Positions 6,590 through 31,052 of a stretch of DNA of 32,142 bases are shown piece after piece. The DNA is from Peptococcaceae bacterium. Lineage in GTDB: Bacteria > Bacillota > Desulfotomaculia > Desulfotomaculales > JACDOK01. Position numbers and translations under genes: made by a program. The notes below the pieces were generated by a model. The model was not told where the DNA came from. It saw nothing but the letters and a program-made list of their open reading frames with translations, and made no database searches. Location: the NCBI GenBank assembly GCA_017656185.1, contig JACDOK010000023.1, forward strand, positions 1 through 32,142, in the 5' to 3' direction. Every line of letters begins with the position of its first letter. The stretch's first letter is position 1.

Positions 6590-6690
6590 TACCGTTCGAC
6601 GTTCGATGTGCAACGTGCGACGTTCGAGGTTCGAAAAAAGTTCAACGTTCAACGATAATCGTTCAAGGTTCGACGTTCGACGTTGGAATT
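6590..6690. repeat. 7-bp periodic array (GTTCGAC / GTTCAAC)
   Basis: The spacer upstream of the FlaG-like gene holds imperfect heptamers GTTCGAC, GTTCGAG, GTTCAAC and GTGCGAC in tandem. The units are rich in TTCGA. A second, longer array of the same family sits at 7778-7925, so flgL is flanked by both. Confidence 0.8.
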
Positions 6691-6853: not shown

Positions 6854-7735
6854 TTAGCGGAGGTAGTCGATGAGGCTCATCTGCATCAGCTTGGCCCCGG
6901 CGGATAAGGCAGCGCGGTAAGCAATCTGCTGCTGGGTAAAGTCGATGGCCGCGCGGCCGATGTCGCTATCCTGCAGGCTGGATTTAACGGCCGCCAAGCG
7001 TACCTCCTGGTCTTCAAGCTGGCTCTTCAGCGCTTCCAGGTGGCGGGTACGGGAACCGATTTTGACGCGGTGCACAAGAACGGCATCTATATTATTATCT
7101 AAATCACCAATATTTTGTTCTATCCCTGCAGTATTATTCGCATCTAAATTATCACGTAAGCTGGCTAATGTTGCAAAAATATTCTCAAAGGTTGTTTCAA
7201 CGTATGCGTTTACCTCTACTTCTTCATCACGACCAATTTCACGTTTTACATTTTCCGAAAAAGTAGGATCACTAGTATTAATTTGAAATACACCGTTGTT
7301 AAACGGCTTGGTATCCGTCTTATTGCCCGCAAAAATATACTTATTGCCCATCTGCCTATTAGCAACCTGTTCCATCCCATCCATAATACCCTCAATCTGG
7401 CGGGCGATGGTCTGCCTGTCTTCCGGGCTGTAAGTGTCGTTGCTGGCCTGGACGGCAAGCTCGCGGGCTTTATGCAGCAAACCCAAGGCATCGTTTAAAG
7501 CGGCGTCTGTTTCGTAGACCCAAGCTAAACCGTCGGTAATATTCCGTATATACTGCCTATTGCGATCAATGCCGCTCTCGATCTCCATGATCTGGCTGGT
7601 CGCGGTAGGGTCGTCGCTGGGGCGGTTAACTCTCTTGCCGGTGGACATGCGTTCCTGGGCTTTGGCCAGTTCTTCGAGATTATACTGGACGCTTTTCATC
7701 ATGCGGTTGCCGATCACAGTATGGGTAATGCGCAT
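6854..7735 (-). CDS. flgL: Flagellar hook-associated protein FlgL (HAP3)
   Basis: A 293-residue hook-filament junction protein, exported through the flagellum, which adapts hook and FlgK to the filament. The N-terminal flagellin-like D0/D1 region opens MRITHTVIGNRMMKSVQYNL and carries AKAQERMSTGKRVNRPSDDP, the strongest FlgL/flagellin signature. The C-terminus has QDSDIGRAAIDFTQQQIAYR and ends LMQMSLIDYLR. The ATG at 7735 has GGAGG 5 bases upstream; the frame stays open for 35 further codons into repeat DNA, which is not FlgL-like. It is transcribed after flgK. Repeat arrays lie on both sides, which is unusual inside an operon. Confidence 0.96.
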   Translation of the reverse strand: MRITHTVIGNRMMKSVQYNLEELAKAQERMSTGKRVNRPSDDPTATSQIMEIESGIDRNRQYIRNITDGLAWVYETDAALNDALGLLHKARELAVQASNDTYSPEDRQTIARQIEGIMDGMEQVANRQMGNKYIFAGNKTDTKPFNNGVFQINTSDPTFSENVKREIGRDEEVEVNAYVETTFENIFATLASLRDNLDANNTAGIEQNIGDLDNNIDAVLVHRVKIGSRTRHLEALKSQLEDQEVRLAAVKSSLQDSDIGRAAIDFTQQQIAYRAALSAGAKLMQMSLIDYLR

Positions 7736-7777
7736 AATATCCTCCAATCTGACGGGATTAACGAGATTAATATAATA

Positions 7778-7925
7778 ATGTTCGACGTTCGATGCTTTAA
7801 AGTTCGAGGTTCGAGTGTTCCAAAAGAGTTCAACGTTCAAGGTTCAACGTTCTAAGTTCAAGGTTCAAGGTTCAAGGTTCAACGTTCAACGTTCGAGATT
7901 CGACGTTCGACGTTCGAAGTTCGAA
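7778..7925. repeat. Long 7-bp periodic array between flgK and flgL
   Basis: About twenty heptamers of the form GTTCRAS (GTTCGAC, GTTCAAC, GTTCAAG, GTTCGAG) fill most of the 198-base spacer. A stretch near 7855-7885 is nearly pure GTTCAAG/GTTCAAC. Both GTTCGA and GTTCAA variants occur in blocks, suggesting local duplication. Confidence 0.85.
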
Positions 7926-10369: not shown

Positions 10370-11428
10370 CTATAACATTTTCTCAACTATTTGCACCAGA
10401 GTCGGACCAATTTGGGGCAAAGGAATGACATTATCGGCTAAACCGGCATCAACAACCGCCTTGGGCATGCCATAGACCACACAAGTGCTTTCATCCTGCG
10501 CTATCGTCAGCCCGTTGGCGGCTTTAATGGCCCGCATTCCTTCCAGTCCGTCCCGGCCCATCCCGGTAAGTACGACGCCGCAAGTCTGACTGCCGTATAT
10601 CTCAGCCGCACTGGTCATAACTTCATCCACTGAGGGACAAAAAGAGCCCGGTTTCAACGGTCCCCGGCATTCCCTCACCACACAATGCACGCCGGAAGTC
10701 TTTCTTTGCAGTGCAAATCGCTTTCCCGAAGGGGCAATTAAAACTCCCCCCCACTTCACCATGTCCCCGTCCGCCGCATGCTTTACCCTCAAAGCACACC
10801 TGGCGTCAAGGTTTTCGGCCAGGGAAGCCGTAAAACCGGCGGGCATATGCTGTACAACGAGGACCGGAACTTTGAAGTCCGGGGGCAGAGAAGGCAGTAT
10901 GACTCGCAGGGCGGCAGGTCCTCCTGTTGAACAGCCGATGACAATTAACTGTACACGCTGCCGTGGTAATACTATCCCGGCCGGTTTATCCCTTCTTAGC
11001 TTTTTTTCCGGGGGTAATCCCGCCGCCTTACTGATATCCGCGGCAGCAGCAGCCTCAATCTTAGCCACCAGCTCATCCACCATAGCATTTAACCCGGTAC
11101 TTTGGGTGGGTTTGAGAACAAAATCGACAGCACCGTTTGCCAATGCGTCTATAGCGACCGAACTTCCTTCGCACGTATGGGCGCTCAGCATCAGCACCGG
11201 TACAGGGTAACTTCGCATCAGCCGCTTCAAGGTGGATAAGCCGTCAAGGACAGGCATCTCAACATCAAGAATTACGACATCGGGTTTGACCTTGGGAATT
11301 TGCTCCAGGGCTTCCTGCCCGTTACGCGCCGTACCGACCAGTTTAAAACCATAGTTTCTGGCCAGTATCCCTCCGATGATCTTACGAATTGCCGGCGAAT
11401 CATCAACGATAAAAATACTAACTGGCAC
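10370..11428 (-). CDS. cheB: Chemotaxis glutamate methylesterase/deamidase CheB (first copy)
   Basis: A 352-residue CheB, which removes methyl groups from chemoreceptor glutamates and is activated by phosphate from CheA. The N-terminal receiver domain (about 1-120) has D9, D10 and the phospho-acceptor D55 in VILDVEMPVLDG, and a KPT motif. After a linker with PPEKKLRRD, the catalytic domain (about 165-350) has the Ser site GCSTGGPAAL, the His site QHMPAGFTASL and the Asp site GMGRDGLEGM. The GTG at 11428 has AAGGTG 7 bases upstream and overlaps the cheA end by 11 bases, so translation is coupled. No cheR is adjacent; the only cheR in the window is at 29611. Confidence 0.95.
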   Translation of the reverse strand: MPVSIFIVDDSPAIRKIIGGILARNYGFKLVGTARNGQEALEQIPKVKPDVVILDVEMPVLDGLSTLKRLMRSYPVPVLMLSAHTCEGSSVAIDALANGAVDFVLKPTQSTGLNAMVDELVAKIEAAAAADISKAAGLPPEKKLRRDKPAGIVLPRQRVQLIVIGCSTGGPAALRVILPSLPPDFKVPVLVVQHMPAGFTASLAENLDARCALRVKHAADGDMVKWGGVLIAPSGKRFALQRKTSGVHCVVRECRGPLKPGSFCPSVDEVMTSAAEIYGSQTCGVVLTGMGRDGLEGMRAIKAANGLTIAQDESTCVVYGMPKAVVDAGLADNVIPLPQIGPTLVQIVEKML

Positions 11429-13517
11429 AGGCCGACACCTTATCTTCTTTCCTGGTAAATTCCTGTACCAGCGCCTGCACGTCGACAATAAGAGCCACAT
11501 TACCGTCGCCCAGAATAGTTGCCCCGGAAAGCCCCGGAATACGTCCCAGGTACTTACCAAGCGACTTGATGACAATCTCTTGCTCGCCGATGAGGTAATC
11601 TACCACCACACCCACCATATTCTCAGCTGTTCCGATGATGACAACGGATAGTTTATCTTTGGCTTCCGACCTTTCCCCAAACAATTCTGCCAGGCGCACG
11701 AGAGGTAGCACGGAACCGCGAACCACGATAACTTCGCGGTCCTTGACCAATTGGATCTCGTTGCAGGTAATCTGGATCGTTTCCTGGACGTTAGCAAGGG
11801 GGAAAGCGTAGATTTTATTAGCGAGACTAACCATCAGCGCCCTGATAATAGCCAGGGTTAAAGGTAATTTAATAATGAATTGGGTACCTTTCCCCGGTGA
11901 ACTTTTGACATCCACGGTACCATTAATTTGTTCGATTTGATTACGCACTACATCCATCCCCACCCCGCGACCGGAAAGGTCACTAACCTCGGCGGCGGTG
12001 GAAAAACCTGGCCTAAAAATCAGGTCTATGGCATCCTTATCACTCATACGCTCGGCGCTTTCAGCGTCTACGACGCCTTTTTGTATGGCGGCTTGCTTAA
12101 CTTTGGCAGGGTCAATCCCGCGCCCGTCATCCTCCACAATGATCACGATATGGTTCTCTTCGTGATAAGCTTTGAGCTTCAGCATACCAGTTACAGGTTT
12201 ACCCAGCTGCCGGCGCTCCTCAGCCGTTTCAATGCCATGATCGATAGCGTTGCGTACCAGGTGTAACAACGGCTCACCGATTATCTCAATGATATTGCGA
12301 TCAAGCTCGGTTTCCCGGCCCTCTATCACCAGATTGATTTCTTTGCCGAGTTTGTGAGCTATGTCCCGCACCATGCGTGGAAAACGGCTGAAAACCTGGT
12401 TAATCGGCAACATCCGGGCCTTCATTATCTCATCTTGTAAATTCCCGGTAACCTGCCCCAAATGGTTGGATATCTCACTGATAGTGTCAACGAGTTCATC
12501 ACTCTTTTGTCCACTTTCCATCAGCTCGGCAAAGCGGTCCAACCGGGTACGCTCTATGACAAGTTCTCCTACCAAATTCATCAAATTATCCAACTTATCA
12601 ACGCTAATCCGTACTGTACGCACTGTTTTTGGGGTCGCCATGCCGGAAGGACCGTCCGCTTTTTTGTCCGCAGCGGCGTTTGCCGTCTTGGAAGCGGCAA
12701 GAGACGCCTCTTCCTCCGCATTAGACGATGTGGTAGATGTAAACTCGTCATCGGAAACCCTAACCGGCGTTACTCGTGCATCTTCGATTTCGGCAATCCC
12801 TAATATCTTCTGGCGGAGTTCATCAGCAGTTTTTTCAGAAACAGCAACTAAATCAAATTCACGATCAAATTCTCCTTCTTCAAGCTGCTCGGCTGGAGGT
12901 TCAGATTTGATGACCTCGCCCATCCCTTCCAGCCTATCGAACACCATAAAGGCTCTCACATTTTTCATTTGGCAATCGGGATCTAAAATAACACGAATGC
13001 GATAAGCGTTAAGTCCGCGTAAAAGAGCCTCGCGGATTATTTCTATCTCTGCGTCGGTCAACTCCGGCTCGTTTTCGCTCTCTCCACCGGAAGAAACACT
13101 AAGCGGTTGACTTTCCGCCGGCCCACTTTCCTGATCGCTTTCTCCACGAAAATACTTTCCTAATTTTGCCATAATTGGATCAATATCAACATCAGCGTCG
13201 CCGCCCACTACTTTGTCACGCAGCAACTTAAGTGTATCAAGGGCCTCGAACAAGACATCAATCATTTCGCTGGTTACCCGGAGCTCGCCTTGTCTGATAC
13301 GGTCAAACAGGTTCTCCATTTCGTGGGTTAAGGCTGACATTTTATCGTAACCCATGATAGCAGAAGACCCTTTGATGGTATGGGCAGCACGGAAAATCTC
13401 CTGAACCACCTCCGGGCTTTCCCCGGCGCGCTCCAGTTGTAGAAAACCATCGCTGATAACCTCGATCTTTTCGTCCAATTCGTCCAGGAAAACGCTAATT
13501 TCAGCATCTGAAAACAT
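11418..13517 (-). CDS. cheA: Chemotaxis histidine kinase CheA (copy 1)
   Basis: A 699-residue CheA that phosphorylates CheY and CheB in response to receptors. P1 (1-105) has the phospho-acceptor H46 in AAHTIKGSSAIMG. P2 (about 170-260) has NAYRIRVILDPDCQMKNVRA. P3 dimerisation starts at VRISVDKLDNLMNLVGELVI. P4 has the N box LVRNAIDHG, DDGRGIDP and RPGFSTAAEVSDLSGRGVGM. P5, the CheW-like domain, ends with ALVQEFTRKEDK. The ATG at 13517 is fixed by AGGAGGTAACC. Bases 11431-13493 appear identical to 18895-20957 in copy 2; the two differ only in residues 5-8 (AEIS here, EELG there) and near the end (CAS here, RAG there). It lies between cheW and cheB. Confidence 0.97.
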   Translation of the reverse strand: MFSDAEISVFLDELDEKIEVISDGFLQLERAGESPEVVQEIFRAAHTIKGSSAIMGYDKMSALTHEMENLFDRIRQGELRVTSEMIDVLFEALDTLKLLRDKVVGGDADVDIDPIMAKLGKYFRGESDQESGPAESQPLSVSSGGESENEPELTDAEIEIIREALLRGLNAYRIRVILDPDCQMKNVRAFMVFDRLEGMGEVIKSEPPAEQLEEGEFDREFDLVAVSEKTADELRQKILGIAEIEDARVTPVRVSDDEFTSTTSSNAEEEASLAASKTANAAADKKADGPSGMATPKTVRTVRISVDKLDNLMNLVGELVIERTRLDRFAELMESGQKSDELVDTISEISNHLGQVTGNLQDEIMKARMLPINQVFSRFPRMVRDIAHKLGKEINLVIEGRETELDRNIIEIIGEPLLHLVRNAIDHGIETAEERRQLGKPVTGMLKLKAYHEENHIVIIVEDDGRGIDPAKVKQAAIQKGVVDAESAERMSDKDAIDLIFRPGFSTAAEVSDLSGRGVGMDVVRNQIEQINGTVDVKSSPGKGTQFIIKLPLTLAIIRALMVSLANKIYAFPLANVQETIQITCNEIQLVKDREVIVVRGSVLPLVRLAELFGERSEAKDKLSVVIIGTAENMVGVVVDYLIGEQEIVIKSLGKYLGRIPGLSGATILGDGNVALIVDVQALVQEFTRKEDKVSACAS
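11431..13493 (-). repeat. 2,063-bp direct repeat within cheA, copy 1
   Basis: This interval matches 18895-20957 at a constant offset of 7,464 bases; I saw no mismatch when reading the two. Beyond both ends, up to the aligned stop and start codons, similarity drops to 9 of 13 and 18 of 24 bases. The repeats are in the same orientation. Confidence 0.9.
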
Positions 13518-13630
13518 GTGGTTACCTCCTACAGAGAAGCATAAGCATATCCGAAAATCTTTGGGGGACAAGCACCAGCACCTTCCGCATGTTTTTACCA
13601 TAAATTAGAGCAGTCCTACGGGGAAACGTA

Positions 13631-14125
13631 TTATTGCGCCGCCCTTTTCAGTATGTCCTGAGTTTCCCGCAACTGTTCCTGTTCATCTTTCTGCAGTACC
13701 TTATCAAGATTTAACATAATAATGAGCCGGTCATCCCGCAGCACGATGCCGCGCAAGAACTCGGCGTCCACCCCACCCACAACCGGTGGCGGCGGTTTCA
13801 TACTGTCCATTGACACGCTCAAGACCTCGTGCACCGCATCTACGATCATACCCACCGTCATTTCGCCCACCTGGACGATGATAATCCGGCTGGACTTGGT
13901 CTGCTCTCCCTCGGGGAGGTGGAACCTCTTGCGCAAATCAATGATCGGTACAATACGACCGCGCAGGTTGATAATGCCCTCAACAAACTCCGGCGCCTTG
14001 GGCACCCTAGTGATTTTTTCCATTCTAATGATTTCCCAGACATCAGCAATACCTACCCCGTAAATCTGACCACTTAATTCAAAAACAACGATCTGCTCCT
14101 CACGCGATCTAACTTCCTCAGTCAT
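13631..14125 (-). CDS. cheW: Chemotaxis coupling protein CheW (first copy)
   Basis: A 164-residue CheW, the SH3-like adaptor that joins receptors to CheA. Typical motifs are EEQIVVFELSGQIYGVGIAD, then ITRVPKAPEFVEGIINLRG, RIVPIIDLRKRF and GMIVDAVHEVLSV. It has a slightly extended C-terminus (DEQEQLRETQDILKRAAQ). The ATG at 14125 follows GGAGGTGTACGTTT; upstream frame extension is not CheW-like. It is the first gene of the minus-strand operon cheW-cheA-cheB, 113 bases before cheA, and is divergent from the ubiB-like gene. Confidence 0.95.
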   Translation of the reverse strand: MTEEVRSREEQIVVFELSGQIYGVGIADVWEIIRMEKITRVPKAPEFVEGIINLRGRIVPIIDLRKRFHLPEGEQTKSSRIIIVQVGEMTVGMIVDAVHEVLSVSMDSMKPPPPVVGGVDAEFLRGIVLRDDRLIIMLNLDKVLQKDEQEQLRETQDILKRAAQ

Positions 14126-14368
14126 AAACGTACACCTCCGTTCCAAGCAACAGGGCAACAATACCTCCGTTACCATAAACTCTCTAAAGCTACATATTTC
14201 TTCCCTATATAACCCCATTCCTTCCTAATCGACAGCAAACAAAAGCCCTAGGGTGTATTCCTTGCATTATTGGACAAAATGTGCCAAAAACCCTGCTTGA
14301 TCCCAAAAGTTTTGGTTTGTTAGTTTTCTGGAAAAAGCGCATGCTAGACAATGAGGGAGGTTGCACTC
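14126..14368. other. Divergent spacer between cheW and the UbiB-like gene
   Basis: This 243-base spacer must hold the promoters of both the minus-strand che-flg operon and the plus-strand UbiB-like gene. I found no convincing sigma-28 match. TTGCAT-like and TATATA-like hexamers occur, but with poor spacing. No gene is visible. Confidence 0.4.
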
Positions 14369-16030
14369 TTGTTAAGGATGTTTCGGCAGCGGTTGCGGCA
14401 GTTCCACAGGTATCGCCAGATCGCCCGCATTTTAACGAAGCACGGTTTCGATTATTTTGTGCATCTATTTCGCCTGGCAGATCTGGTAGCATATCCCCGC
14501 AGGTTGGTTACCAGGCGCCAGCGAACCGTATACCGGATGTCAGCGCCGGAACGGTTTCGCATCATGCTCCAGGAACTCGGTCCCACCTTTATCAAGTTGG
14601 GGCAAATTATGTCCACGCGCGCCGACCTGCTGCCGCAAAACTATATCAGCGAACTGGAAAAACTGCAGGACAGGGTGCCGCCGGTAAGGTTCGAGGACAT
14701 CAGCAAACAGGTGGAACAGTCGTTAAACCGTCCCCTGGCGGATATCTTCGCCCATTTTGAGGAGGAGCCTCTTGCGGCGGCATCCATCGCCCAGGTCCAC
14801 CGGGCGACCCTGAAAACGGGTGAAGATGTCGTCGTTAAAGTCCAGCGCCCCGGCGTAGCAGAATTAACCGCCGTTGATGTCCAGATTCTGCGCGATTTTG
14901 CCTACCTTGCCGAAAAACACACGGCCTGGGGACAAATCTACAGCTTCACCGAAATGGCCGACGAATTTGCGGACACCATTGCTGAGGAGACTGACTTTCG
15001 TGTCGAAGGGCGCCACGCCGACACCATTCGCCACAACTTCGATACCGATGACAGGGTTTATATTCCCAAAGTGTATTGGGATTTCACTGCTAAAGAAGTT
15101 CTTACCATGGAATACGTGGACGCGGTCAAGCTCAACAACCTGCAGGCGTTGGAAGCCGCCGGCATTGACCGCTCTTCTCTCGCCCGCACGCTGGCCGATG
15201 TGCTGCTCCGGCAGATATTGATTGACGGGGTTTTCCACGCCGATCCCCACCCCGGAAACCTTGCCGTACTGCCCGACGGGCGCCTGGTCTTCATGGATCT
15301 CGGGATTATCGGGAACCTAACCCCGCAAGCACGCGATCACATAGGAACAATGGTCCTCGGCCTGGTCAAACGCAGCGCCGAAATGGTATCCCGCGCCATC
15401 ATCGAAATGGGGCAGGTCCCGCCAACAGTCAACAAAGATGCCCTGCAGCGGGATATTTATAAATTGCAGCAAAAATACTACGAAATCCCCCTCAGCCAGA
15501 TCAATATCACCGAATCTCTTACCGAACTCCTCCAGGTAGCCTTTAAACACCGTATCAAACTGCCCAACGAAACCACCATGGTGATCAAAGCCCTCATTAC
15601 CACCGACGGTGTGGTCAAAAAGTTGGATCCCCGGATCAGCATCGTCGAAATCGCCGAGCCCATCGGACGCCGGATCCTGCAGGAACGTTTTAACCCGCGC
15701 CGCTTGCAAGCCCTGCTGGCCGAAAAACTGCCCCAGTACGCCCACCTGCTGGAACAATTCCCCTTCCAGGTCAGCGAGCTGCTGGAGCAGGCTACCGGTG
15801 GAACCTTTAAGTTAAACCAGGAAAACCCCGCTCTTAATCGCCTGGCAAACAATGCCGGAAAATGGATCAACCGCCTGGTTTGGGGTTTCATCACCGGTAC
15901 CTTGTTTATCACCGCCGGCTTGTTTGCCGATATCGGCTACCGCCTGTTCAACACCTTTGAGGTCGTTGACGCAGCCCTGGTCACCGCATTCGGTTTACTG
16001 CTGTGGTTATTGCTCACCAGCCGCCGCTAA
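14369..16030 (+). CDS. UbiB/ABC1/ADCK family protein kinase-like protein
   Basis: A 553-residue atypical kinase-like protein of the UbiB/ABC1 (ADCK) family, linked elsewhere to isoprenoid quinone synthesis. Family motifs are all present: KLGQ at residues 76-79 ([16 protein letters not shown]), the Ala-rich loop AAASIAQVH, the lysine strand VVVKVQRP, the catalytic HADPHPGN at 290-297 and MDLG at 309-312. Two C-terminal membrane helices ([17 protein letters not shown] and [15 protein letters not shown]) anchor it. I start at the TTG at 14369 because GGGAGG at 14355-14360 lies 8 bases upstream; the ATG at 14351 has no ribosome site. It separates the che operon from motAB. A link to motility is not expected from the family. 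Confidence 0.93.
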
Positions 16031-16141
16031 ACCTTACCAATATTTCCTATGAAAAATTGTGGAAATTGTCAAAAGAAGCAGGAAAAACTTGGCGCAACGC
16101 GAAATTAGTCTTAATTTCCTATTTTCGAAGGGGGACATCCT

Positions 16142-16945
16142 GTGGACCTGGCGACCTTGATAGGCATTATAATCAGCTTTGTCAGCCTCGTTGGTGGGTT
16201 TTTGCTTGAAGGCGGACACGGTGACATGCTGGTTGTGTACACATCTATGATCATCGTATTCGGCGGCACCATAGGGGCCACCATGTCCGGTTTTTCTTTC
16301 TATGAACTTAAAGTCCTCCCAGCAGCCATACGGGCATTGCTATTTCACAAACTGCCATCCGAACCTGCGGTGGTGCAGCAAATTGTAGACTTGGCGGAAA
16401 AAGCCCGCCGCGAAGGTCTTCTGGCCCTTGAAAACCAAATTGAAGAAATCGATGATCAATTTTTAAAAAAAGGTATGCAGTTGGTGGTGGACGGCGCTGA
16501 CCCCGAGGTGGTGCGCAGCGTCCTGCAGACCGAAATTTATTCAATTCAGGAACGTCACCGTATTGCCCAGGATATTTTTGAGGCGGCCGGCGGATACGCC
16601 CCCACGATGGGCATTATCGGCACCGTGATGGGGTTGATTCACGTTCTCGGCAACCTCACTGATCCTGACTCATTGGGACCGGCTATTGCCGTGGCCTTCA
16701 CGGCCACCCTATACGGCGTATGCAGTGCCAATGTCGTTTACTTCCCTATCGCCGCGCGCCTTAAAAACATCAGCCGCAAAGAAATCACGATCAGGCTTTT
16801 GATGATGGAGGGCATTACCGCCCTGCAGGCCGGCAACAACCCGCTTATCATTTCCGAACAACTGGTAGCCTTCCTGCACCCCAAAGAAAAACAGCAAGCG
16901 TTAGAACACAGCGAGCAGGGTAGTGAAACCTATGAGATCTCATAA
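16142..16945 (+). CDS. motA: Flagellar motor stator protein MotA
   Basis: A 267-residue stator subunit of the flagellar motor, in the inner membrane, forming the ion channel with MotB. Four membrane segments are visible: ATLIGIIISFVSLVGGFLL, MLVVYTSMIIVFGGTIGAT, APTMGIIGTVMGLIHVLG and GPAIAVAFTATLYGVCSANV. The large cytoplasmic loop between the second and third carries the charged residues that meet FliG (EKARREGLLALENQIEEI). The GTG at 16142 follows GAAGGGGG. It overlaps motB by 14 bases, so the two are coupled. Confidence 0.97.
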   Translation: MDLATLIGIIISFVSLVGGFLLEGGHGDMLVVYTSMIIVFGGTIGATMSGFSFYELKVLPAAIRALLFHKLPSEPAVVQQIVDLAEKARREGLLALENQIEEIDDQFLKKGMQLVVDGADPEVVRSVLQTEIYSIQERHRIAQDIFEAAGGYAPTMGIIGTVMGLIHVLGNLTDPDSLGPAIAVAFTATLYGVCSANVVYFPIAARLKNISRKEITIRLLMMEGITALQAGNNPLIISEQLVAFLHPKEKQQALEHSEQGSETYEIS

Positions 16946-17717
16946 TAATAGAATTCAACAACACGGCGAAGATCGTAAACCAAATCACGAGCGCTGGTTG
17001 ATTACCTATGCTGACCTGATCACTCTGCTTCTGATTTTCTTCGTAGTTTTGTATTCCTTCAGTAAAATTGATGCCGAAAAGTTCGCCGCCATCGCCGAAT
17101 CTTTAACCAAGGCTTTAGGCGGCGGGCAAATGAGTTTTATTTTGGATCAACCAGGCACCTCCATTGCGCCCGGCCTTCAAAATCAGTCCAACGATATTGA
17201 CCTGCAGCAAAGCGCCGAAGCAGTACAATTGGCCAGAATTGAAGGACAGCTTAGAAAATTCATTAAAGAAAAGGGCCTTGATGCATCGATTAGTGTTATT
17301 TCAGAGGAACGGGGTGTTGTTTTAAGTATCCAGGATACGGTCCTTTTTGAATCCGGAAAAGCACGCTTAACGCCTGAAGCAAAAGAGATCATTGATGAGG
17401 TAGGACTCTTGTTACTGAGTGTACCGAATTATATTCGTATAGAAGGGCACACGGACAATCTTCCCATCCACACAAGGGAGTTCCCGTCCAACTGGGAGCT
17501 CTCGGTAGCCCGCGCCTGCAGCGTGGTGCAGAGGTTGATCAAAAAGCATAACTTTCCACCCGAACGCCTTTCCGCTACCGGCTACGGCGAATACCGTCCC
17601 CGTGTACCCAATGACACGGCTGAGCACCGCCAGATAAACCGCCGCGTGGACTTCGTAATTCTCAGCAGCAAATACATTAAGACCGAACCCAAACCCTTAT
17701 TCGAGCTATCTGAATAA
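16932..17717 (+). CDS. motB: Flagellar motor stator protein MotB
   Basis: A 261-residue stator subunit. A single N-terminal membrane helix contains the ion-carrying Asp at D28 in WLITYADLITLLLIFFVVLY. A plug region follows, then an OmpA-like peptidoglycan-binding domain (about 140-250) with RIEGHTDNLPI, SNWELSVARA, LSATGYGEYRP and NRRVDFVI. I use the ATG at 16932; a GTG at 16923 in frame is only 2 bases from the AGGG site. The gene overlaps motA. Ion type (H+ or Na+) cannot be decided here. Confidence 0.97.
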   Translation: MRSHNNRIQQHGEDRKPNHERWLITYADLITLLLIFFVVLYSFSKIDAEKFAAIAESLTKALGGGQMSFILDQPGTSIAPGLQNQSNDIDLQQSAEAVQLARIEGQLRKFIKEKGLDASISVISEERGVVLSIQDTVLFESGKARLTPEAKEIIDEVGLLLLSVPNYIRIEGHTDNLPIHTREFPSNWELSVARACSVVQRLIKKHNFPPERLSATGYGEYRPRVPNDTAEHRQINRRVDFVILSSKYIKTEPKPLFELSE

Positions 17718-17732
17718 ACACAGCGATCATTC

Positions 17733-17761
17733 TTGCATTGAGACCTTAAGGGTGGTATAAT
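17733..17761 (+). promoter_or_regulatory. Promoter of tRNA-Val
   Basis: TTGCAT at 17733-17738, a 17-base spacer and a perfect TATAAT at 17756-17761 form a housekeeping promoter. It ends 12 bases before the tRNA. Confidence 0.8.
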
Positions 17762-17773
17762 AAATATTGCTTC

Positions 17774-17848
17774 GGGCGCGTAGCTCAGGGGGAGAGCGCT
17801 TGACTCACATTCAAGAGGTCGGAGGTTCGAAACCTCCCGCGCCCACCA
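17774..17848 (+). tRNA. tRNA-Val (anticodon CAC)
   Basis: All arms fold in 75 bases: acceptor GGGCGCG with CGCGCCC, D stem GCTC/GAGC, anticodon stem CTTGA/TCAAG around CTCACAT, and T stem GGAGG/CCTCC around TTCGAAA. The anticodon CAC (position 34-36) reads GTG, so it carries valine. Discriminator A and a genomically encoded CCA are present. It is a single gene with its own promoter and terminator, downstream of motB. Confidence 0.97.
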
Positions 17849-17862
17849 GTTATAACCAGTTT

Positions 17863-17891
17863 ACCAGATGGAGTTTTCATCTGGTTTTTTG
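17863..17891 (+). terminator. Rho-independent terminator of tRNA-Val
   Basis: CCAGATG pairs with CATCTGG across GAGTTTT and is followed by six T. It lies 15 bases after the tRNA. Confidence 0.88.
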
Positions 17892-17910
17892 TTTTTTGGC
17901 CTGAAAAAGC

Positions 17911-17941
17911 TGCTTCCTTACCTTTACAAGTGGGGAAGCAT
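17911..17941 (+). repeat. CTTTACA-loop hairpin, copy 1
   Basis: TGCTTCCTTACC and GTGGGGAAGCA form an imperfect stem around TTTACAA. This is the most decayed of three related hairpins (others at 18447-18472 and 21991-22021). It is followed by AAAAGGAGG and a 7-codon reading frame (17962-17985), which looks like the truncated start of a lost gene. Confidence 0.5.
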
Positions 17942-17981
17942 ATCTATGTTGAAAAGGAGGTATGGTGGTAAAAATGATTAA

Positions 17982-18080
17982 CTAACGACTGTTTCCAAAT
18001 CCAAAACCAATCAGGTGTTTACGCTTTTGCTTAGCTCTTGTACAGGCCAAACTTGCTTTATTAACTAACTCGTTAATCAT
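17982..18080 (-). pseudogene. Short basic reading-frame remnant
   Basis: A 32-codon frame from ATG 18080 to TAG 17982, basic (ACTRAKQKRKH) and without a ribosome site. The open frame extends upstream as RTNNEVSNFMINELVNKASL, which overlaps the end of the next minus-strand frame in a shifted register. It is probably a decayed continuation of that gene. I do not recognise it. Confidence 0.3.
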
Positions 18081-18096
18081 AAAGTTTGACACTTCG

Positions 18097-18249
18097 TTAT
18101 TGGTCCGGCGATAATGCATCCACCATCCTGCGAGCCGCCTCAGGCCCGATAGGAGCCTCATTGCCTACCAGCAACACGTCCTGCATAGGCGGTATTTCAA
18201 ATTCAGATAAAGAGAGTTGAATTTCCGCCTTTTTTTTTACAGTCGTCAT
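18097..18249 (-). CDS. Small 50-residue frame, possibly the shifted part of a broken gene
   Basis: From ATG 18249 a frame encodes 50 residues, MTTVKKKAEIQLSLSEFEIP and onwards, including GPEAARRMVDAL. The composition looks like real protein. The only good ribosome site (GGAGAGG) instead serves the ATG at 18257 in another frame, MSYDDCKKK, which meets this frame at a run of nine A (18238-18230 on the minus strand). Either a one-base shift broke the gene or slippage at the run joins the frames. It lies in decayed DNA beside cheA copy 2. Family unknown. Confidence 0.35.
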   Translation of the reverse strand: MTTVKKKAEIQLSLSEFEIPPMQDVLLVGNEAPIGPEAARRMVDALSPDQ

Positions 18250-18446
18250 AACTCATTAATATATACCTCTCCATAGCTATATTGATTAACACAACCTGTC
18301 ATAAATAACCAATATTTGATTTTCTACGACATTTCCAATAGTCCTGCCTGAAACGGTTTTATAGAATCTTTTCCTATATTTTCGCTAAGGTTAGCATTGC
18401 CTAATTTAACCGGCCCATACCCCAACCATCGAAAATAAATGCACAA
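18250..18446. other. Spacer with no recognised gene
   Basis: AT-rich DNA with a possible promoter region for the small minus-strand frame. A dyad GGTTA...TAACC occurs near 18391-18413. A long minus-strand open frame here runs through a repeat hairpin and has no family features, so I do not call it. Confidence 0.3.
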
Positions 18447-18472
18447 CTTCCCCGCCTGTAAAGACGGGGAAG
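18447..18472 (-). repeat. CTTTACA-loop hairpin, copy 2
   Basis: CTTCCCCG pairs perfectly with CGGGGAAG around a 10-base loop which, on the minus strand, reads TCTTTACAGG. It is related to copies at 17911 and 21991. On the plus strand GGGAGG and an ATG (18499) follow, as for copy 1. Confidence 0.6.
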
Positions 18473-18629
18473 CGTATCCATTAAATAAGGGAGGCATTAT
18501 GAACGGTTTAGCTAAAGTGCAAGCATTAAACTTCCAATATGCAGGTAAAAGCCGGACAAATGTTTTTCCTGTCCCTTCGGGCAATTTAAATAATCCCAAT
18601 ATTTCAGCTACTCATTTTTCGTGCTTTAA

Positions 18630-18880
18630 CTATTCCTCGTCGTCCTCAAACGTGTTGTTTTTTATTGCTTCTAAAAGTTCGTCAATAAGGCGATCTAATG
18701 CTTCTTCAGGACTTGCGCCATATTCTTCGGCCAGTTCTTTTAGAATATCGCGTTCTTTAATACCAACCAGCCCCCTAATAGATCTTATTGAGCGTTTATT
18801 CAGATTTAAAACAAGTAAAACCTTTTCCCGGTTTTACAATACCTTTCAAGGCACCATTGGCTCGTTTGGGTAATAAGAAA
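18630..18880 (-). pseudogene. Remnant of an unknown acidic helical protein
   Basis: A minus-strand frame ending at TAG 18630 encodes a credible C-terminus (KERDILKELAEEYGASPEEA, then RLIDELLEA, ending FEDDEE) but has no start codon before the in-frame TAA at 18834. Upstream, another frame gives ANGALKGIVKPGKG, consistent with one frameshift near 18820. The remnant abuts the 3' end of cheA copy 2. The family is not recognised; the helical, acidic pattern is compatible with a small regulatory or antitoxin-like protein, but this is a guess. Confidence 0.4.
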
Positions 18881-18881
18881 C

Positions 18882-20981
18882 CTAACCGGCTCGAGCCGAC
18901 ACCTTATCTTCTTTCCTGGTAAATTCCTGTACCAGCGCCTGCACGTCGACAATAAGAGCCACATTACCGTCGCCCAGAATAGTTGCCCCGGAAAGCCCCG
19001 GAATACGTCCCAGGTACTTACCAAGCGACTTGATGACAATCTCTTGCTCGCCGATGAGGTAATCTACCACCACACCCACCATATTCTCAGCTGTTCCGAT
19101 GATGACAACGGATAGTTTATCTTTGGCTTCCGACCTTTCCCCAAACAATTCTGCCAGGCGCACGAGAGGTAGCACGGAACCGCGAACCACGATAACTTCG
19201 CGGTCCTTGACCAATTGGATCTCGTTGCAGGTAATCTGGATCGTTTCCTGGACGTTAGCAAGGGGGAAAGCGTAGATTTTATTAGCGAGACTAACCATCA
19301 GCGCCCTGATAATAGCCAGGGTTAAAGGTAATTTAATAATGAATTGGGTACCTTTCCCCGGTGAACTTTTGACATCCACGGTACCATTAATTTGTTCGAT
19401 TTGATTACGCACTACATCCATCCCCACCCCGCGACCGGAAAGGTCACTAACCTCGGCGGCGGTGGAAAAACCTGGCCTAAAAATCAGGTCTATGGCATCC
19501 TTATCACTCATACGCTCGGCGCTTTCAGCGTCTACGACGCCTTTTTGTATGGCGGCTTGCTTAACTTTGGCAGGGTCAATCCCGCGCCCGTCATCCTCCA
19601 CAATGATCACGATATGGTTCTCTTCGTGATAAGCTTTGAGCTTCAGCATACCAGTTACAGGTTTACCCAGCTGCCGGCGCTCCTCAGCCGTTTCAATGCC
19701 ATGATCGATAGCGTTGCGTACCAGGTGTAACAACGGCTCACCGATTATCTCAATGATATTGCGATCAAGCTCGGTTTCCCGGCCCTCTATCACCAGATTG
19801 ATTTCTTTGCCGAGTTTGTGAGCTATGTCCCGCACCATGCGTGGAAAACGGCTGAAAACCTGGTTAATCGGCAACATCCGGGCCTTCATTATCTCATCTT
19901 GTAAATTCCCGGTAACCTGCCCCAAATGGTTGGATATCTCACTGATAGTGTCAACGAGTTCATCACTCTTTTGTCCACTTTCCATCAGCTCGGCAAAGCG
20001 GTCCAACCGGGTACGCTCTATGACAAGTTCTCCTACCAAATTCATCAAATTATCCAACTTATCAACGCTAATCCGTACTGTACGCACTGTTTTTGGGGTC
20101 GCCATGCCGGAAGGACCGTCCGCTTTTTTGTCCGCAGCGGCGTTTGCCGTCTTGGAAGCGGCAAGAGACGCCTCTTCCTCCGCATTAGACGATGTGGTAG
20201 ATGTAAACTCGTCATCGGAAACCCTAACCGGCGTTACTCGTGCATCTTCGATTTCGGCAATCCCTAATATCTTCTGGCGGAGTTCATCAGCAGTTTTTTC
20301 AGAAACAGCAACTAAATCAAATTCACGATCAAATTCTCCTTCTTCAAGCTGCTCGGCTGGAGGTTCAGATTTGATGACCTCGCCCATCCCTTCCAGCCTA
20401 TCGAACACCATAAAGGCTCTCACATTTTTCATTTGGCAATCGGGATCTAAAATAACACGAATGCGATAAGCGTTAAGTCCGCGTAAAAGAGCCTCGCGGA
20501 TTATTTCTATCTCTGCGTCGGTCAACTCCGGCTCGTTTTCGCTCTCTCCACCGGAAGAAACACTAAGCGGTTGACTTTCCGCCGGCCCACTTTCCTGATC
20601 GCTTTCTCCACGAAAATACTTTCCTAATTTTGCCATAATTGGATCAATATCAACATCAGCGTCGCCGCCCACTACTTTGTCACGCAGCAACTTAAGTGTA
20701 TCAAGGGCCTCGAACAAGACATCAATCATTTCGCTGGTTACCCGGAGCTCGCCTTGTCTGATACGGTCAAACAGGTTCTCCATTTCGTGGGTTAAGGCTG
20801 ACATTTTATCGTAACCCATGATAGCAGAAGACCCTTTGATGGTATGGGCAGCACGGAAAATCTCCTGAACCACCTCCGGGCTTTCCCCGGCGCGCTCCAG
20901 TTGTAGAAAACCATCGCTGATAACCTCGATCTTTTCGTCCAATTCGTCCAGGAAAACCCCGAGTTCCTCATCTGAAAACAT
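18882..20981 (-). CDS. cheA: Chemotaxis histidine kinase CheA (copy 2)
   Basis: A 699-residue CheA with the same P1-P5 layout as copy 1 and the same H46, N box and ATP-lid motifs. It differs from copy 1 only at residues 5-8 (EELG) and in the last few residues (ARAG in place of ACAS). The ATG at 20981 has GGGAGG 9 bases upstream, a leader different from copy 1. It is the last gene of the riboswitch-MCP-cheW-cheX-cheY-cheA unit, 13 bases after cheY. It probably serves this second set of signalling proteins while being biochemically the same kinase. The identical core points to recent gene conversion or duplication. Confidence 0.97.
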   Translation of the reverse strand: MFSDEELGVFLDELDEKIEVISDGFLQLERAGESPEVVQEIFRAAHTIKGSSAIMGYDKMSALTHEMENLFDRIRQGELRVTSEMIDVLFEALDTLKLLRDKVVGGDADVDIDPIMAKLGKYFRGESDQESGPAESQPLSVSSGGESENEPELTDAEIEIIREALLRGLNAYRIRVILDPDCQMKNVRAFMVFDRLEGMGEVIKSEPPAEQLEEGEFDREFDLVAVSEKTADELRQKILGIAEIEDARVTPVRVSDDEFTSTTSSNAEEEASLAASKTANAAADKKADGPSGMATPKTVRTVRISVDKLDNLMNLVGELVIERTRLDRFAELMESGQKSDELVDTISEISNHLGQVTGNLQDEIMKARMLPINQVFSRFPRMVRDIAHKLGKEINLVIEGRETELDRNIIEIIGEPLLHLVRNAIDHGIETAEERRQLGKPVTGMLKLKAYHEENHIVIIVEDDGRGIDPAKVKQAAIQKGVVDAESAERMSDKDAIDLIFRPGFSTAAEVSDLSGRGVGMDVVRNQIEQINGTVDVKSSPGKGTQFIIKLPLTLAIIRALMVSLANKIYAFPLANVQETIQITCNEIQLVKDREVIVVRGSVLPLVRLAELFGERSEAKDKLSVVIIGTAENMVGVVVDYLIGEQEIVIKSLGKYLGRIPGLSGATILGDGNVALIVDVQALVQEFTRKEDKVSARAG
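18895..20957 (-). repeat. 2,063-bp direct repeat within cheA, copy 2
   Basis: This is the partner of 11431-13493, at an offset of 7,464 bases and in the same orientation. Recombination between the copies would remove cheW, the UbiB-like gene, motA, motB and tRNA-Val as one block. Confidence 0.9.
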
Positions 20982-20994
20982 AACTGTCACCTCC

Positions 20995-21360
20995 CTACTT
21001 GTTCAGAACCTTTTTAATCGCCTGCAGGATACGTTCTTGTTCAAAGGGCTTTACAATAAAATCTTTCGCTCCGGCCTGGATGGCCTCCATAACCATCTGT
21101 TGTTGGCCCATGGCCGTTACCATGACGATCTTGGCGTCGGGGTCCTTGGCGATGATGGCTTTAACGGCTCCGATGCCGTCCAGCTCAGGCATGGTAATAT
21201 CCATAGTTACCACATCGGGTTTGTGCTCTTCATATTTCTTAATCGCCACGGCACCGTTTTCGGCTTCGTCCACTACTTCGTAACCCGCTTTGGTAACGGT
21301 GTTCTTGATGGTCATGCGCATAAAGGCCGCATCGTCTACGACCAGGATTTTGGCAGCCAC
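20995..21360 (-). CDS. cheY: Chemotaxis response regulator CheY
   Basis: A 121-residue single-domain receiver. After phosphorylation by CheA it binds the flagellar switch. The catalytic set is complete: D9 and D10 (ILVVDDAAFMR), acceptor D54 in VVTMDITMPELDG, T82 in VMVTAMG and K104 in DFIVKPF. It closely resembles the CheY of Thermotoga and Bacillus (KAGYEVVDEAENGAVAI). The GTG at 21360 is 10 bases after GAGGGG. It lies between cheX and cheA, so kinase, regulator and phosphatase are made together. Confidence 0.96.
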   Translation of the reverse strand: MAAKILVVDDAAFMRMTIKNTVTKAGYEVVDEAENGAVAIKKYEEHKPDVVTMDITMPELDGIGAVKAIIAKDPDAKIVMVTAMGQQQMVMEAIQAGAKDFIVKPFEQERILQAIKKVLNK

Positions 21361-21392: not shown

Positions 21393-21866
21393 TCAATTGA
21401 CTCCTTTAATAGCAAAGTTGATTTCTAACTGATCGTTCTCGAGATAATACGGTACACAGATGACCGGTTTTTGATTAGTCACGGTGACTTGTTCTCCGGT
21501 CAGCGTCGTAGGTGGGGTGATGGTAACGTTAATACCTGCTTCGCTCAAAAGTGTGCCACTGCGCCCCATCACCATATTGCTTAACTCCCCTAACGCACTA
21601 AGGGTCATGTCATCGATGGCCGTTATTTCCATTCCCGCCATCGCCGAAGCCAGTCTTTGGGCTGCTTTATCGGAATACGAAAAGATGACTTGCCCTTGGA
21701 TATCGCCTGTAATACCGATGATGCTAATGACGTGATGCACAGGGTAAGGCGTTTTCTTGACAAACGGCTTACCCCGGTCTGGGGACAAACCCGTGATCTG
21801 GTTAATGATTTCTAAACATGCTTGCAAAAAGTGGTTTAAAGTATCTGCTAGAACGGTATTCTCCAT
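21393..21866 (-). CDS. cheX: CheY-P phosphatase CheX
   Basis: A 157-residue CheX of the CheC/CheX/FliY phosphatase family, which dephosphorylates CheY-P in Gram-positive bacteria. The catalytic E-x-x-N motif is at E94 and N97 in LSALGELSNMVMGRSG. The flanks fit the family: GDIQGQVIFSYSD before, LSEAGINVTITPPTTLTGE after. The ATG at 21866 has AAAGGGAAG upstream; an earlier in-frame start at 21908 lacks one. The gap to cheY is 32 bases. It is the only CheC-class phosphatase gene in the window. Confidence 0.92.
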   Translation of the reverse strand: MENTVLADTLNHFLQACLEIINQITGLSPDRGKPFVKKTPYPVHHVISIIGITGDIQGQVIFSYSDKAAQRLASAMAGMEITAIDDMTLSALGELSNMVMGRSGTLLSEAGINVTITPPTTLTGEQVTVTNQKPVICVPYYLENDQLEINFAIKGVN

Positions 21867-22157
21867 ATGGCATCTTCCCTTTCCAGATTTCAGAATGGTC
21901 GTCTGCAATTTACTAATTGATTAGCTCTGAGCTATCTAACTGTCGACTTATGACAATTTGCATTACTTTTACAAGTTTAAACCTAATAGTATGCTTCCCC
22001 ACCCTAAAGGTGGGGAAGCATTTCTGTCACACGTTAAACAATCTGCATTACTCGCCCTTACTCATCCTCTTCCGTCTCAGACTAAGCCTTGGCGACCGAT
22101 TCCCGGCTCTCTGCGACAAGACGGTCATTAGGGCATAAAGATTTCTGCCTGAAACAG
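21867..22157 (-). other. Spacer between cheW and cheX with two hairpin regions
   Basis: This 291-base gap holds the perfect CTTTA-loop hairpin at 21991-22021 and a second dyad in which CCGTCT (22072-22077) pairs with AGACGG (22119-22124), with AGCC/GGCT nested inside. It contains no gene. A structured leader for cheX or a processing site is possible but unproven. Confidence 0.4.
21991..22021 (-). repeat. CTTTA-loop hairpin, copy 3 (perfect 13-bp stem)
   Basis: ATGCTTCCCCACC pairs perfectly with GGTGGGGAAGCAT around a 5-base loop. On the minus strand the loop side reads CCACCTTTAGGGTGG. Hairpins of this design are typical of the ends of IS200/IS605-type elements, but no transposase or tnpB gene is near. 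There is no T-run. Confidence 0.65.
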
Positions 22158-22577
22158 CTACTTTACAATGCTGTTCAAGTCCAGAAGCAACCAAAGGTTT
22201 TTATCCCGCTTAATTATCCCTTTGATAAAGGAATTATCACCAATGGCTGTGTCGGACATGTCCAGCTCATCTTCTTCGTAAGTACTCACCTCGTCCACCC
22301 CGTCCACAATCATGCCAATTCTTTCTTCCCCGTTTTCAATCACCACAATGCGGCTGTCGCGGCTTCTTTCTCCTTCCGGCAGGCCCATCTTGCGGTGCAG
22401 GTTCAGCACCGGTACGACCTTGCCGCGGAGGTTGATAATGCCTTCCACGTAAGCATCAGACCGGGGCACTGGAGTGATATCGACCATACGGATGATTTCA
22501 TTGGTACGGTCTACAGGAAGGGCGTATTTTTGATCGGCAAGCCTGAAAATAACTAACTGGTTGCTAGTATTACTCAT
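22158..22577 (-). CDS. cheW: Chemotaxis coupling protein CheW (second copy)
   Basis: A 139-residue CheW adaptor. Motifs: QLVIFRLADQKYALPVDRT, then ITPVPRSDAYVEGIINLRG, KVVPVLNLHRKMGL, RIGMIVDGVDEVSTYEEDEL and IKGIIKRDKNLWLLLDL. It is only moderately like the CheW at 13631, so it is an old paralogue, in contrast with the near-identical cheA pair. The ATG at 22577 follows AAGGTGA. It directly follows the chemoreceptor gene (52-base gap), suggesting a dedicated receptor-adaptor pair. Confidence 0.95.
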   Translation of the reverse strand: MSNTSNQLVIFRLADQKYALPVDRTNEIIRMVDITPVPRSDAYVEGIINLRGKVVPVLNLHRKMGLPEGERSRDSRIVVIENGEERIGMIVDGVDEVSTYEEDELDMSDTAIGDNSFIKGIIKRDKNLWLLLDLNSIVK

Positions 22578-22629: not shown

Positions 22630-24249
22630 CTATTTAACGGACCCTTGGGGTGCTGCTGTAAGCTTTTCGGCATCATCTATCCTGAACCGTGCCGCCATCT
22701 TCTGTAGTTCCTCGGCCATTTGGGTAAGCGATTCGGTTGATGACGCGATTTCTTCCATGGCGGCCGTTGATTCTTCGGTAGTAGCGGCCACATTCTGTAC
22801 GGCTGAGGAAACCTGTTCGGCACCGGAAGATAATTCATCAATTTGACTGGCCAAGCCTTTTACCCGGTCGATGATCTGGGCAAAGGATGCGCCGACCTTA
22901 TTAACTACATTGACCCCTTCTTCCACTTCCTTAACTCCGTCTTCCATTACGTCATTGGCATTCTTGGTTTCGGTCTGGACTTTACTGATCAGCTGCTGGA
23001 TCTCGGCGGCGGCGTTGGCTGACTGTTCCGCCAGCTTACGCACTTCCTCTGCCACCACCGCAAAGCCCCTGCCTTGTTCTCCGGCGCGGGCGGCTTCAAT
23101 GGCAGCGTTTAGGGCCAACAGGTTGGTCTGGTCGGCGATATTGCTGATGGTCTCCACGATGTTACCGATCTCGCTGGACATTTTATCTAGTTTCCCGATG
23201 ACGGTGCTGGCATTTTGGGTCGAGGCACGAATGGTATTCATCTGCTTCTTGATGGTGTCGATACCCTGCCGCCCTTCTTCGGCTTCATTTGATGCTTCGT
23301 CGGAAGCCTCTTTAATGTTCTGGACATTCTGTGCCATCTGCTCCACCGTCTGAGATGTCTGCTGCATGCTGGAGGAGGTCTCGTTGGCGCCGGCCGAAGT
23401 CTCTTCGGCGTTGGCGGAGAGCTGCTCGGCGGAGGAAGCAAGATTGTTAGCGTTATGCTTGATGTTCATTACAATCTCTTTGAGGTTGTCGATCATTTTA
23501 TTGAACGCGGCGGCCAAGCTGCCTACTTCGTCTCTGGAACGGACTTGGATGCGCTGCGTTAGATCGCCTTTAGCAACTTTTTCGGCTGCGGCTATAAGCT
23601 TATGTAACGGGTCAATCATTTGCCGGTTCATGAACCACCACAGAACGGTGCTGATGAGAATTAAAGCAATAATAGAAATCAAACCAACGGTCTTAAATGT
23701 TTCTGCGATCATTTTGGAAACAAACGCCGTGGGCGCTCCCACGTACCACATACCAATAATTTGGCCGGAGGAATCTTTGATTGGGGTATAGGCCGTTTGG
23801 TACCAATGGCCCACGACGTTAGCCTCACCATAGTAGTCTCGGCCGTTTTTCAAGGTCGTTTCAGCTACGATATCGGAAACTACCGTCCCTACGGCTCGCT
23901 TGCCGTCTTTTTTGACGTTTGTGGCCACGCGGGTGTCGCCGCAGAAAATGGTAACGGTGTCCCCGTTGGTCAGCCTGCCGATTTTATCTACGATAGCAAA
24001 GTTTCCGTTCATTAAGGTATCGCCTTTATAGAGCTTGTCCCCTTCACGGCGCCATGGTCCCGGGTATTCTTTGTCCAATATTTCGTAACCGAGGGCCAGG
24101 TCGGCTTTGGCTTTCTGAGTTGCCGTATCCTTGGCTTGCTTGGTCACCACAAAATTAACCCCGTACATTACCGCACCCAACAGCAGTATCATGCCGACAA
24201 TGCAGGTGAAACCTATTTTAAACTTGAGAGATAAGTTCTGAAACCTCAA
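22630..24249 (-). CDS. Methyl-accepting chemotaxis protein with single Cache sensor domain
   Basis: A 539-residue membrane receptor. TM1 is at about 12-34, a periplasmic/extracellular single-Cache domain at about 36-180 (family motifs [39 protein letters not shown] and [12 protein letters not shown]), TM2 at about 187-207, HAMP at 208-260 and a signalling bundle with tip [20 protein letters not shown] and [16 protein letters not shown]. The sCache_3-type motifs often bind small organic acids; the ligand here is not known. The TTG at 24249 follows AAGGAGAGG and gives the usual MCP start; ATG 24297 has no site. It lies downstream of a c-di-GMP riboswitch. Confidence 0.95.
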
Positions 24250-24364
24250 CCTCTTCCTCTCCTTTCCCCTTACACGTAATCCTGCCACTTTAAGCATTTC
24301 CTAAATAATCCTTCCTTCTAATCCAACTGTGTCTGCAACCCTTGTAATGCCCGCTGCTTCCATT

Positions 24365-24656: not shown

Positions 24657-24747
24657 TATCCGTGCAGCCTGGCAGCCATAGTCACATTTGTGACCTTAGA
24701 CCCATGGCTTTGCGTCCCCGGCTTTCGCCGGGTTTGCCCTCTGGATA
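24657..24747 (-). ncRNA. Cyclic di-GMP-I (GEMM-I) riboswitch
   Basis: The minus strand shows the conserved GEMM-I core: AGGGCAAACC, a GC stem capped by the GNRA-type CGAAAG loop, then GGGGACGCAAAGCC, then a second arm (GGTCAC-AAAT-GTGACT) and GGCTGCCAGG. P1 closes as TATCC (24747-24743) with GGATA (24661-24657). The CGAAAG tetraloop and GACGCAAAGCC strand are diagnostic. The switch precedes the 73-residue gene and the chemoreceptor operon, so c-di-GMP probably sets their expression. Confidence 0.93.
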
Positions 24748-24751
24748 TCTC

Positions 24752-25563: not shown

Positions 25564-26493
25564 TTAAAACAGTTCTACGTTATCACCCAGTTCCTCATCT
25601 ACTTTCCCCACGTTGGTCGTATCCAGAAGCTTTTCACCGGTCACTTGTTGGTGTACCCGTCGCTCACTGACAGTGGTATAAAGCTTTGCCAGCTTATCCG
25701 TTATTTCTGTTTGATCTTTTAAAGCCTCACCATTTTGCAACGCCAGCGCCAGGTGCTGGAGTTCCTCATTACACTCTTCAACTATTTTCACAACATGATT
25801 CAGTTCCTGGGAAACCATATCCTGAAACTGAAGATTAAAAACCGTGTTTTCCACCTGCCGGGATAACTCAGTTACATTGGCAACCAGAGTATTAGATGCC
25901 TCATGAATGGTTTTTATTGCTTCGGTCATTCTTTCATGTGTTTTATATACTTGCCCCCCGATATTCTGTATGATACTGGTTGAATTATTAATTGTATCCA
26001 TGACATTTACAGTCATATTTTCCACATGACTGTAAATATCCATACTCTGTTTATCCATCTTATCAAGGGTACTTTTGCTCAGTTCTGCCAGCTTACCTAC
26101 TTCCCGGGCCACAATGGCAAATCCCTGTCCGTGTTCGCCGGCGCGGGCCGCTTCTATGGAAGCATTGAGGGCCAGCAATTGAGAATGATCGGCAATATCT
26201 TTCAGCCTACCGGTCAAAGCAGATTGTTTGTCCCGCCAGTATGCTCCATCTTGAATAAATTGTTCCTGCGCTGATCTGACATCATCATTTAGTTTTTTTA
26301 GATCGTTCATTAAATCCTGCATGGTTTGCTGGTTTTCCTTTAATAACTGCGCTATCAGGCTTTGCTTGTTTTCTTGGCTTAAATATTCATCTAAAATATG
26401 TAGACCTTCCCGAGCGTTTTCCCTGGCCGCCGAACAGATACCGGCAATTTTGTCGCCCAACTGCAGCACTGACTCTTCGGTAGTAGTTATCAT
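25564..26493 (-). CDS. Soluble methyl-accepting chemotaxis-type signalling protein
   Basis: A 309-residue cytosolic receptor without membrane segments or HAMP. The N-terminal 75 residues are helical with no known sensor domain. The signalling hairpin tip is [20 protein letters not shown] then [19 protein letters not shown], matching the canonical CheA/CheW contact site. The C-terminal half has a long helix with [19 protein letters not shown]. The last residues are NVELF, which faintly resembles the NWETF tether of CheR/CheB. The ATG at 26493 has only a weak CAGGCG site. It follows the STAS gene by 30 bases and probably senses an internal signal for the third CheA. Confidence 0.88.
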
Positions 26494-26523
26494 CGCCTGA
26501 ATATTAAACCCAACAACAAAAAA

Positions 26524-26796
26524 TTAATTTGTTTTAAAACCCAGAAGTTCCAGGCGTTCAACGACCTGATTATCATGGGGCCAAATTATTTCCAGGCCGG
26601 TATATGCTTGCCGTATAGCCCATAATACCTGCAATGCGGCCATGTCCAACCCTGTTAAATTTTTCATGTCCAGCACCAGATGTCGCTCGGGCCGGCAACA
26701 TATATCAGCAGTAAATTCTTTCACCTGGGTGATGTCAAAACGATCTAGCAACTGTACTACCAGGCGATCTTCCTTATTTTCAAAACTATACCCCAT
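26524..26796 (-). CDS. STAS-domain protein lacking the phosphorylatable serine
   Basis: A 90-residue protein made of one STAS (SpoIIAA-like) domain: strand RLVVQLLDRFDITQVKEFTA, strand HLVLDMKNLTGLDMAALQVL, and C-terminal DNQVVERLELLGF. In anti-anti-sigma factors the loop reads D-S-S-G-L with a phosphorylated Ser; here it is D51-M-A-A-L, with Ala 53 at that site. It therefore cannot be regulated by serine phosphorylation in the usual way and may be a constitutive binding module. The ATG at 26796 overlaps the cheA end by 11 bases and is preceded by GGGGGGAG. The context suggests it binds or tunes the adjoining kinase or receptor. Confidence 0.85.
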   Translation of the reverse strand: MGYSFENKEDRLVVQLLDRFDITQVKEFTADICCRPERHLVLDMKNLTGLDMAALQVLWAIRQAYTGLEIIWPHDNQVVERLELLGFKTN

Positions 26797-29600: not shown

Positions 29601-29610
29601 CAGTCACCAC

Positions 29611-30441: not shown

Positions 30442-30459
30442 TTTATACCACCTTCTCTT

Positions 30460-31029: not shown

Positions 31030-31052
31030 TTAGAGCACCTCCGGCCAAAACT

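Follow-up and report, generated by a model that had tools for sequence, protein, structure and literature searches.

Two cheA copies with an identical core and diverged ends in a Peptococcaceae genome, probably homogenised by recombination

The stretch of DNA analysed here (the window, 32,142 nucleotides) is an entire contig from the genome of a motile Peptococcaceae bacterium, 2.3 Mb in 82 contigs, and it carries two cheA genes that are identical in their core and differ at both ends. We consider it probable, at about 0.7, that these are two older cheA paralogues homogenised by recombination, the copy at the second locus having been overwritten in its core. The copies lie 7.5 kb apart in direct orientation, and a DNA-level search of the whole genome with cheA1 returned two places only, cheA1 itself and cheA2. 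The features of the pair are the following, in window coordinates:

11418-13517, minus strand: cheA1, 699 aa, with the complete CheA domain set by Pfam (Hpt, P2, H-kinase_dim, HATPase_c, CheW-like); by synteny and tree, the vertically inherited copy
11423-11430, minus strand: 3' edge of cheA1, diverged at 4 of 8 bp; holds the GTG start of cheB
11431-13493, minus strand: presumably homogenised tract of cheA1, identical to 18895-20957
13494-13504, minus strand: 5' edge of cheA1, diverged at 6 of 11 bp, in codons 5, 7 and 8
13518-18881, no strand: spacer between the direct repeats, with cheW1, abc1, motA, motB and tRNA-Val(cac)
18882-20981, minus strand: cheA2, 699 aa
18887-18894, minus strand: diverged 3' edge of cheA2, without a cheB start codon; ends GCCGGT-TAG as many relatives do
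18895-20957, minus strand: presumably homogenised tract of cheA2, from the base-by-base comparison
20958-20968, minus strand: diverged 5' edge of cheA2, from the same comparison

The original prediction had described a start, a stop and a length (2,100 bp) that coincide at a fixed offset of 7,464, a core without mismatch and differences at four of the final 13 and six of the initial 24 bases. When both copies were aligned base by base, all these counts were reproduced, with 0 mismatches over the 2,063 bp of the core. The mismatches fall at 11423, 11427, 11429 and 11430 at the 3' end of cheA1 and at 13494, 13496, 13497, 13499, 13503 and 13504 at its 5' end, so that the ten differences are clustered in nt 14-24 (6/11) and nt 2088-2095 (4/8) of the 2,100-nt gene. 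The proteins differ at five amino acids, all at the tips (A5E, I7L, S8G, C697R and S699G). Core divergence is zero, with a 95% upper bound of ~0.15%, and an even divergence of both copies after one duplication is excluded because the edges differ at 10 of 37 positions and the core at 0 of 2,063 (Fisher p ~8e-19). Furthermore, the ends match each other at 18/24 (p ~1e-6) and 9/13 positions (p ~2e-3 against unrelated sequence), and judged by these matches they are homologous and not random; BLAST similarity extends 9 bases beyond the stop codon, at 6/9. What is observed is therefore a near-identical tract flanked by diverged homologous sequence, a pattern expected of gene conversion or concerted evolution of paralogues.

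As had been suggested with the original prediction, the ends were compared with cheA of related genomes, and in both copies the first 24 nt and the last 13 nt proved to be typical cheA edges of this order. The signature at the start (MFSDxExxVFLDEL) is present in the cheA genes of the order and absent from the more distant cheA compared, and the start differences lie in codons 5, 7 and 8, which also vary among relatives. At the other end, cheA1 finishes in GCCAGT-TAG, like one relative (G046), and the ending of cheA2 is the commonest one among relatives. Since the two endings match different relatives, neither looks recently derived from the other. Moreover, because both pairs of ends carry the signature of the order, copy 2 appears to be an older cheA whose core is now equal to that of copy 1.

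The edges were calibrated on 465 pairs of relatives, by setting the divergence of the core against the mismatches in the first 24 nt. All seven pairs with a core difference below 25% had 1-5 mismatches; six mismatches appeared only in pairs with a core difference of 25-45%, a range in which six or fewer are still found. The edge divergence between cheA1 and cheA2, measured over 37 bases, is thus like that of gene pairs differing by 25-45%, and from these sequences the edges look as old as the splits between families, with an unchanged core. The ancient paralogy of the acceptor copy rests on the same 37 bases. Against a long neutral divergence, codons 1-4 and 6 are the same in both copies down to their silent sites, and changes so dense (6/11 bp and 4/8 bp) beside matching codons are a little odd for such a history.

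Regarding the genetic context, the order of locus 1 is cheW1-cheA1-cheB, with abc1, motA and motB adjoining cheW1. The genes beside cheA1 are:

10370-11431, minus strand: cheB (Pfam); its GTG start overlaps the 3' end and stop of cheA1
13631-14125, minus strand: cheW1 (Pfam, synteny)

The order cheW-cheA-cheB, usually beside motAB or abc1, was found in nearly all of the examined relatives that have a cheA match, which identifies locus 1 as the inherited position; in many of them the 3' stretch of cheA also overlaps the start of cheB. In addition, the source genome groups with families f5 and f6 in the CheA tree as well as in the CheB tree, in one and the same clade of eight rows (SH-aLRT 99 in both). 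Given this synteny and the congruence of the two trees, the shared core is consistent with an ancestry at locus 1.

Locus 2 has the order MCP-cheW2-cheX-cheY-cheA2, with cheA2 as the last gene of the cluster:

18865-18881, minus strand: sequence behind the cheA2 stop that may be what is left of a cheB start; it reads PVRFLIT where relatives have PVRVFLV, which is no more than suggestive
20995-21360, minus strand: cheY (Pfam)
21393-21866, minus strand: cheX (Pfam); best relatives in the order ~43%, in another gene arrangement
22158-22577, minus strand: cheW2, 40% identical to cheW1
22630-24297, minus strand: methyl-accepting chemotaxis protein (sCache_3, HAMP and MCPsignal by Pfam), first gene of the locus
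24660-24748, minus strand: c-di-GMP-I riboswitch (Rfam RF01051, 79.5 bits), ~360 bp upstream of the MCP gene

The protein identity of 40% bears out the description of the two cheW genes as quite different. The cluster is probably under the control of the c-di-GMP riboswitch. The sequence past the stop of cheA2 is perhaps a relic of a cheB start: a nucleotide profile gave p 0.012-0.026 over 9-15 bp, and the signal was gone at 18 bp or more. A palindrome 3' of cheA2 was considered as a terminator and rejected, as its fold was no better than those of shuffled sequences. Similar palindromes (CTTCCCC...GGGGAAG) lie at 17911-17940, 18447-18472 and 21994-22018; the exact form occurs in three places of the genome only, two of which bracket cheX-cheY-cheA2. 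They seem similar to the hairpins that end IS605-type elements.

In the search for a second cheA, no near-identical pair and no second CheA of the locus-1 type was found among the 55 relatives from the order that gave a match; their second CheA matches were mostly 35-45% identical and of another CheA type. Nor did a near-identical pair appear among the two-hit genomes listed from a phylum sample of 399 genomes, although such pairs are easily lost from draft assemblies. As a second cheA of this type was seen in no sampled relative, locus 2 is taken to be lineage-specific; the source family is represented by one genome. Following cheX, whose homologues were weak only, none of the seven regions examined had the arrangement MCP-cheW-cheX-cheY-cheA.

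Other observations concern the rest of the contig and the genome. A further chemosensory cluster, the third and a diverged one, occupies 25564-32126 and encodes a CheA of its own, a response regulator, CheR and an MCP-like protein; this CheA (26786-29227), whose kinase part shows 40% identity, is the only other one found in the genome. Arrays of 7-bp units (GTTCAAC/CGTTCGA) at 6593-6684 and 7828-7924, ~79% alike, stand on either side of a flagellin gene (6854-7840). The contig itself starts inside a flagellin gene, and positions 1-115 match the start of another contig (C55; L093 1-115) at 96%, which probably reflects another copy of flagellin at a point where the assembly broke off. Elsewhere, two IS605-type elements (L094 1129-2516 and L095 830-2217) are 96.8% identical, with an exact run of 606 bp; lying within contigs at this identity, they are therefore not homogenised as cheA is.

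It should be considered whether the identity of the cores was produced by the assembly, either by filling the second core from the first, by smoothing of small differences or by merging of two strains. No 16S gene was found in the genome, and this absence, together with the contig break in flagellin, looks typical of short-read drafts, as does the number of contigs; for such data an exact repeat of 2,063 bp is hard. Assemblers that merge similar branches could render 99%-identical copies 100% identical. The contrast between core and edges would withstand such smoothing, but not gap filling from the wrong copy. On the other hand, the repeat and its spacer form a simple loop in the assembly graph, which topology alone can resolve, and the IS605-type pair, with its exact runs, was assembled in two contigs. 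Furthermore, the genome search revealed no diverged cheA core left over at another site, the gene order at locus 1 agrees on either side with what relatives predict, and two distinct pairs of homologous ends would not be expected from a single cheA. We therefore regard an artefact as unlikely, while giving it some weight.

A different origin would be one recent event that copied cheA1 into a locus 2 that held at most fragments of cheA, with short matches setting the junctions. The junctions do lie within conserved motifs, locus 2 is lineage-specific, and two of the palindromes described above flank cheX-cheY-cheA2. However, the remnants would need a spacing of exactly one gene length, the frame, and a homologous start and stop, for all of which an intact resident cheA is the simpler source, and we find this origin rather improbable. 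A recent duplication of the whole gene, with later point mutations confined to the ends, is close to refuted by the statistics, as the original prediction had anticipated in calling a simple duplication unfit: ten changes in 37 bp stand against none, even at silent sites, in 2,063 bp, and the two endings are separately common to different relatives, so that even the missing cheB start in the 3' edge of cheA2, which copy 2 would not need, leaves it a very small probability.

Under homogenisation of older paralogues, an early duplicate of the flagellar cheA, of the order-specific cheW-cheA-cheB type, would have reached the second locus and become the last gene of the MCP-cheW2-cheX-cheY-cheA2 cluster. 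The direct repeats would then have recombined, through either gene conversion or unequal crossover with contraction, so that the core was overwritten and became common to both copies. The 24 and 13 bases at the two extremes, which border on unrelated flanking sequence, would have stayed out of the reach of recombination and kept the older differences. Recombination is most likely the cause of the identity, and the shared core is most likely the vertical sequence of locus 1. The alternative outcome of a crossover would delete cheW1, abc1, motA, motB and the tRNA-Val gene, and its product would likely be non-motile and lost.

The proposal of older, homogenised paralogues thus gained from the subfamily of the edges and from their divergence like that of genes differing by 25-45%, while the alignment fits one conversion event and continuous homogenisation alike. 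Homologous recombination requires long stretches of identity, and for this reason repeated homogenisation is favoured over a single event between strongly diverged genes. As a tentative extension, which we hold to be possible and not yet probable, the two genes may have evolved in concert without interruption ever since an ancient duplication, so that the c-di-GMP-regulated and the housekeeping flagellar clusters are made to share one kinase and only the edges record the age of the duplication. As read from the two genes, both clusters would supply almost the same kinase.

Multiple chemosensory arrays usually have cheA paralogues that diverge and specialise, and additional clusters tend to be interpreted as specialised pathways, each insulated from the others and served by a kinase of its own. 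The source genome likewise has its third, diverged CheA, but cheA1 and cheA2 do not diverge. If a pair kept identical by recombination is confirmed, it would mean the reverse, with selection for, or at the least tolerance of, one kinase shared by two differently regulated operons. In addition, a gene tree made from the core would misdate the second cheA, whose tips hold the older history.

Among the known systems, tufA and tufB of Salmonella are two chromosomal copies kept nearly identical by gene conversion, and their conversion tracts have been modelled as stopping at the repeat boundary (PMC5485169). The likeness lies in copies of the same gene that remain near-identical at separate sites, with conversion blocked at the edges of the repeat. 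The cases differ in that tuf encodes EF-Tu and its conversion was demonstrated experimentally, whereas conversion in cheA, with its closely spaced direct copies, is inferred. Long-lasting concerted evolution in prokaryotes has also been described for 26 genes or gene families (PMC6053082), in whose main text the words chemotaxis and kinase are absent, so that apparently no chemotaxis kinase is named. Our literature search on gene conversion in cheA gave nothing relevant, and no earlier report was found. As in those 26 cases, the paralogues within one genome resemble each other more than orthologues of different species do, and this includes silent sites; there the pattern recurs across species, whereas for cheA it comes from one genome. 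The process, most likely recombination, is thus already known, and cheA would be a new gene for it.
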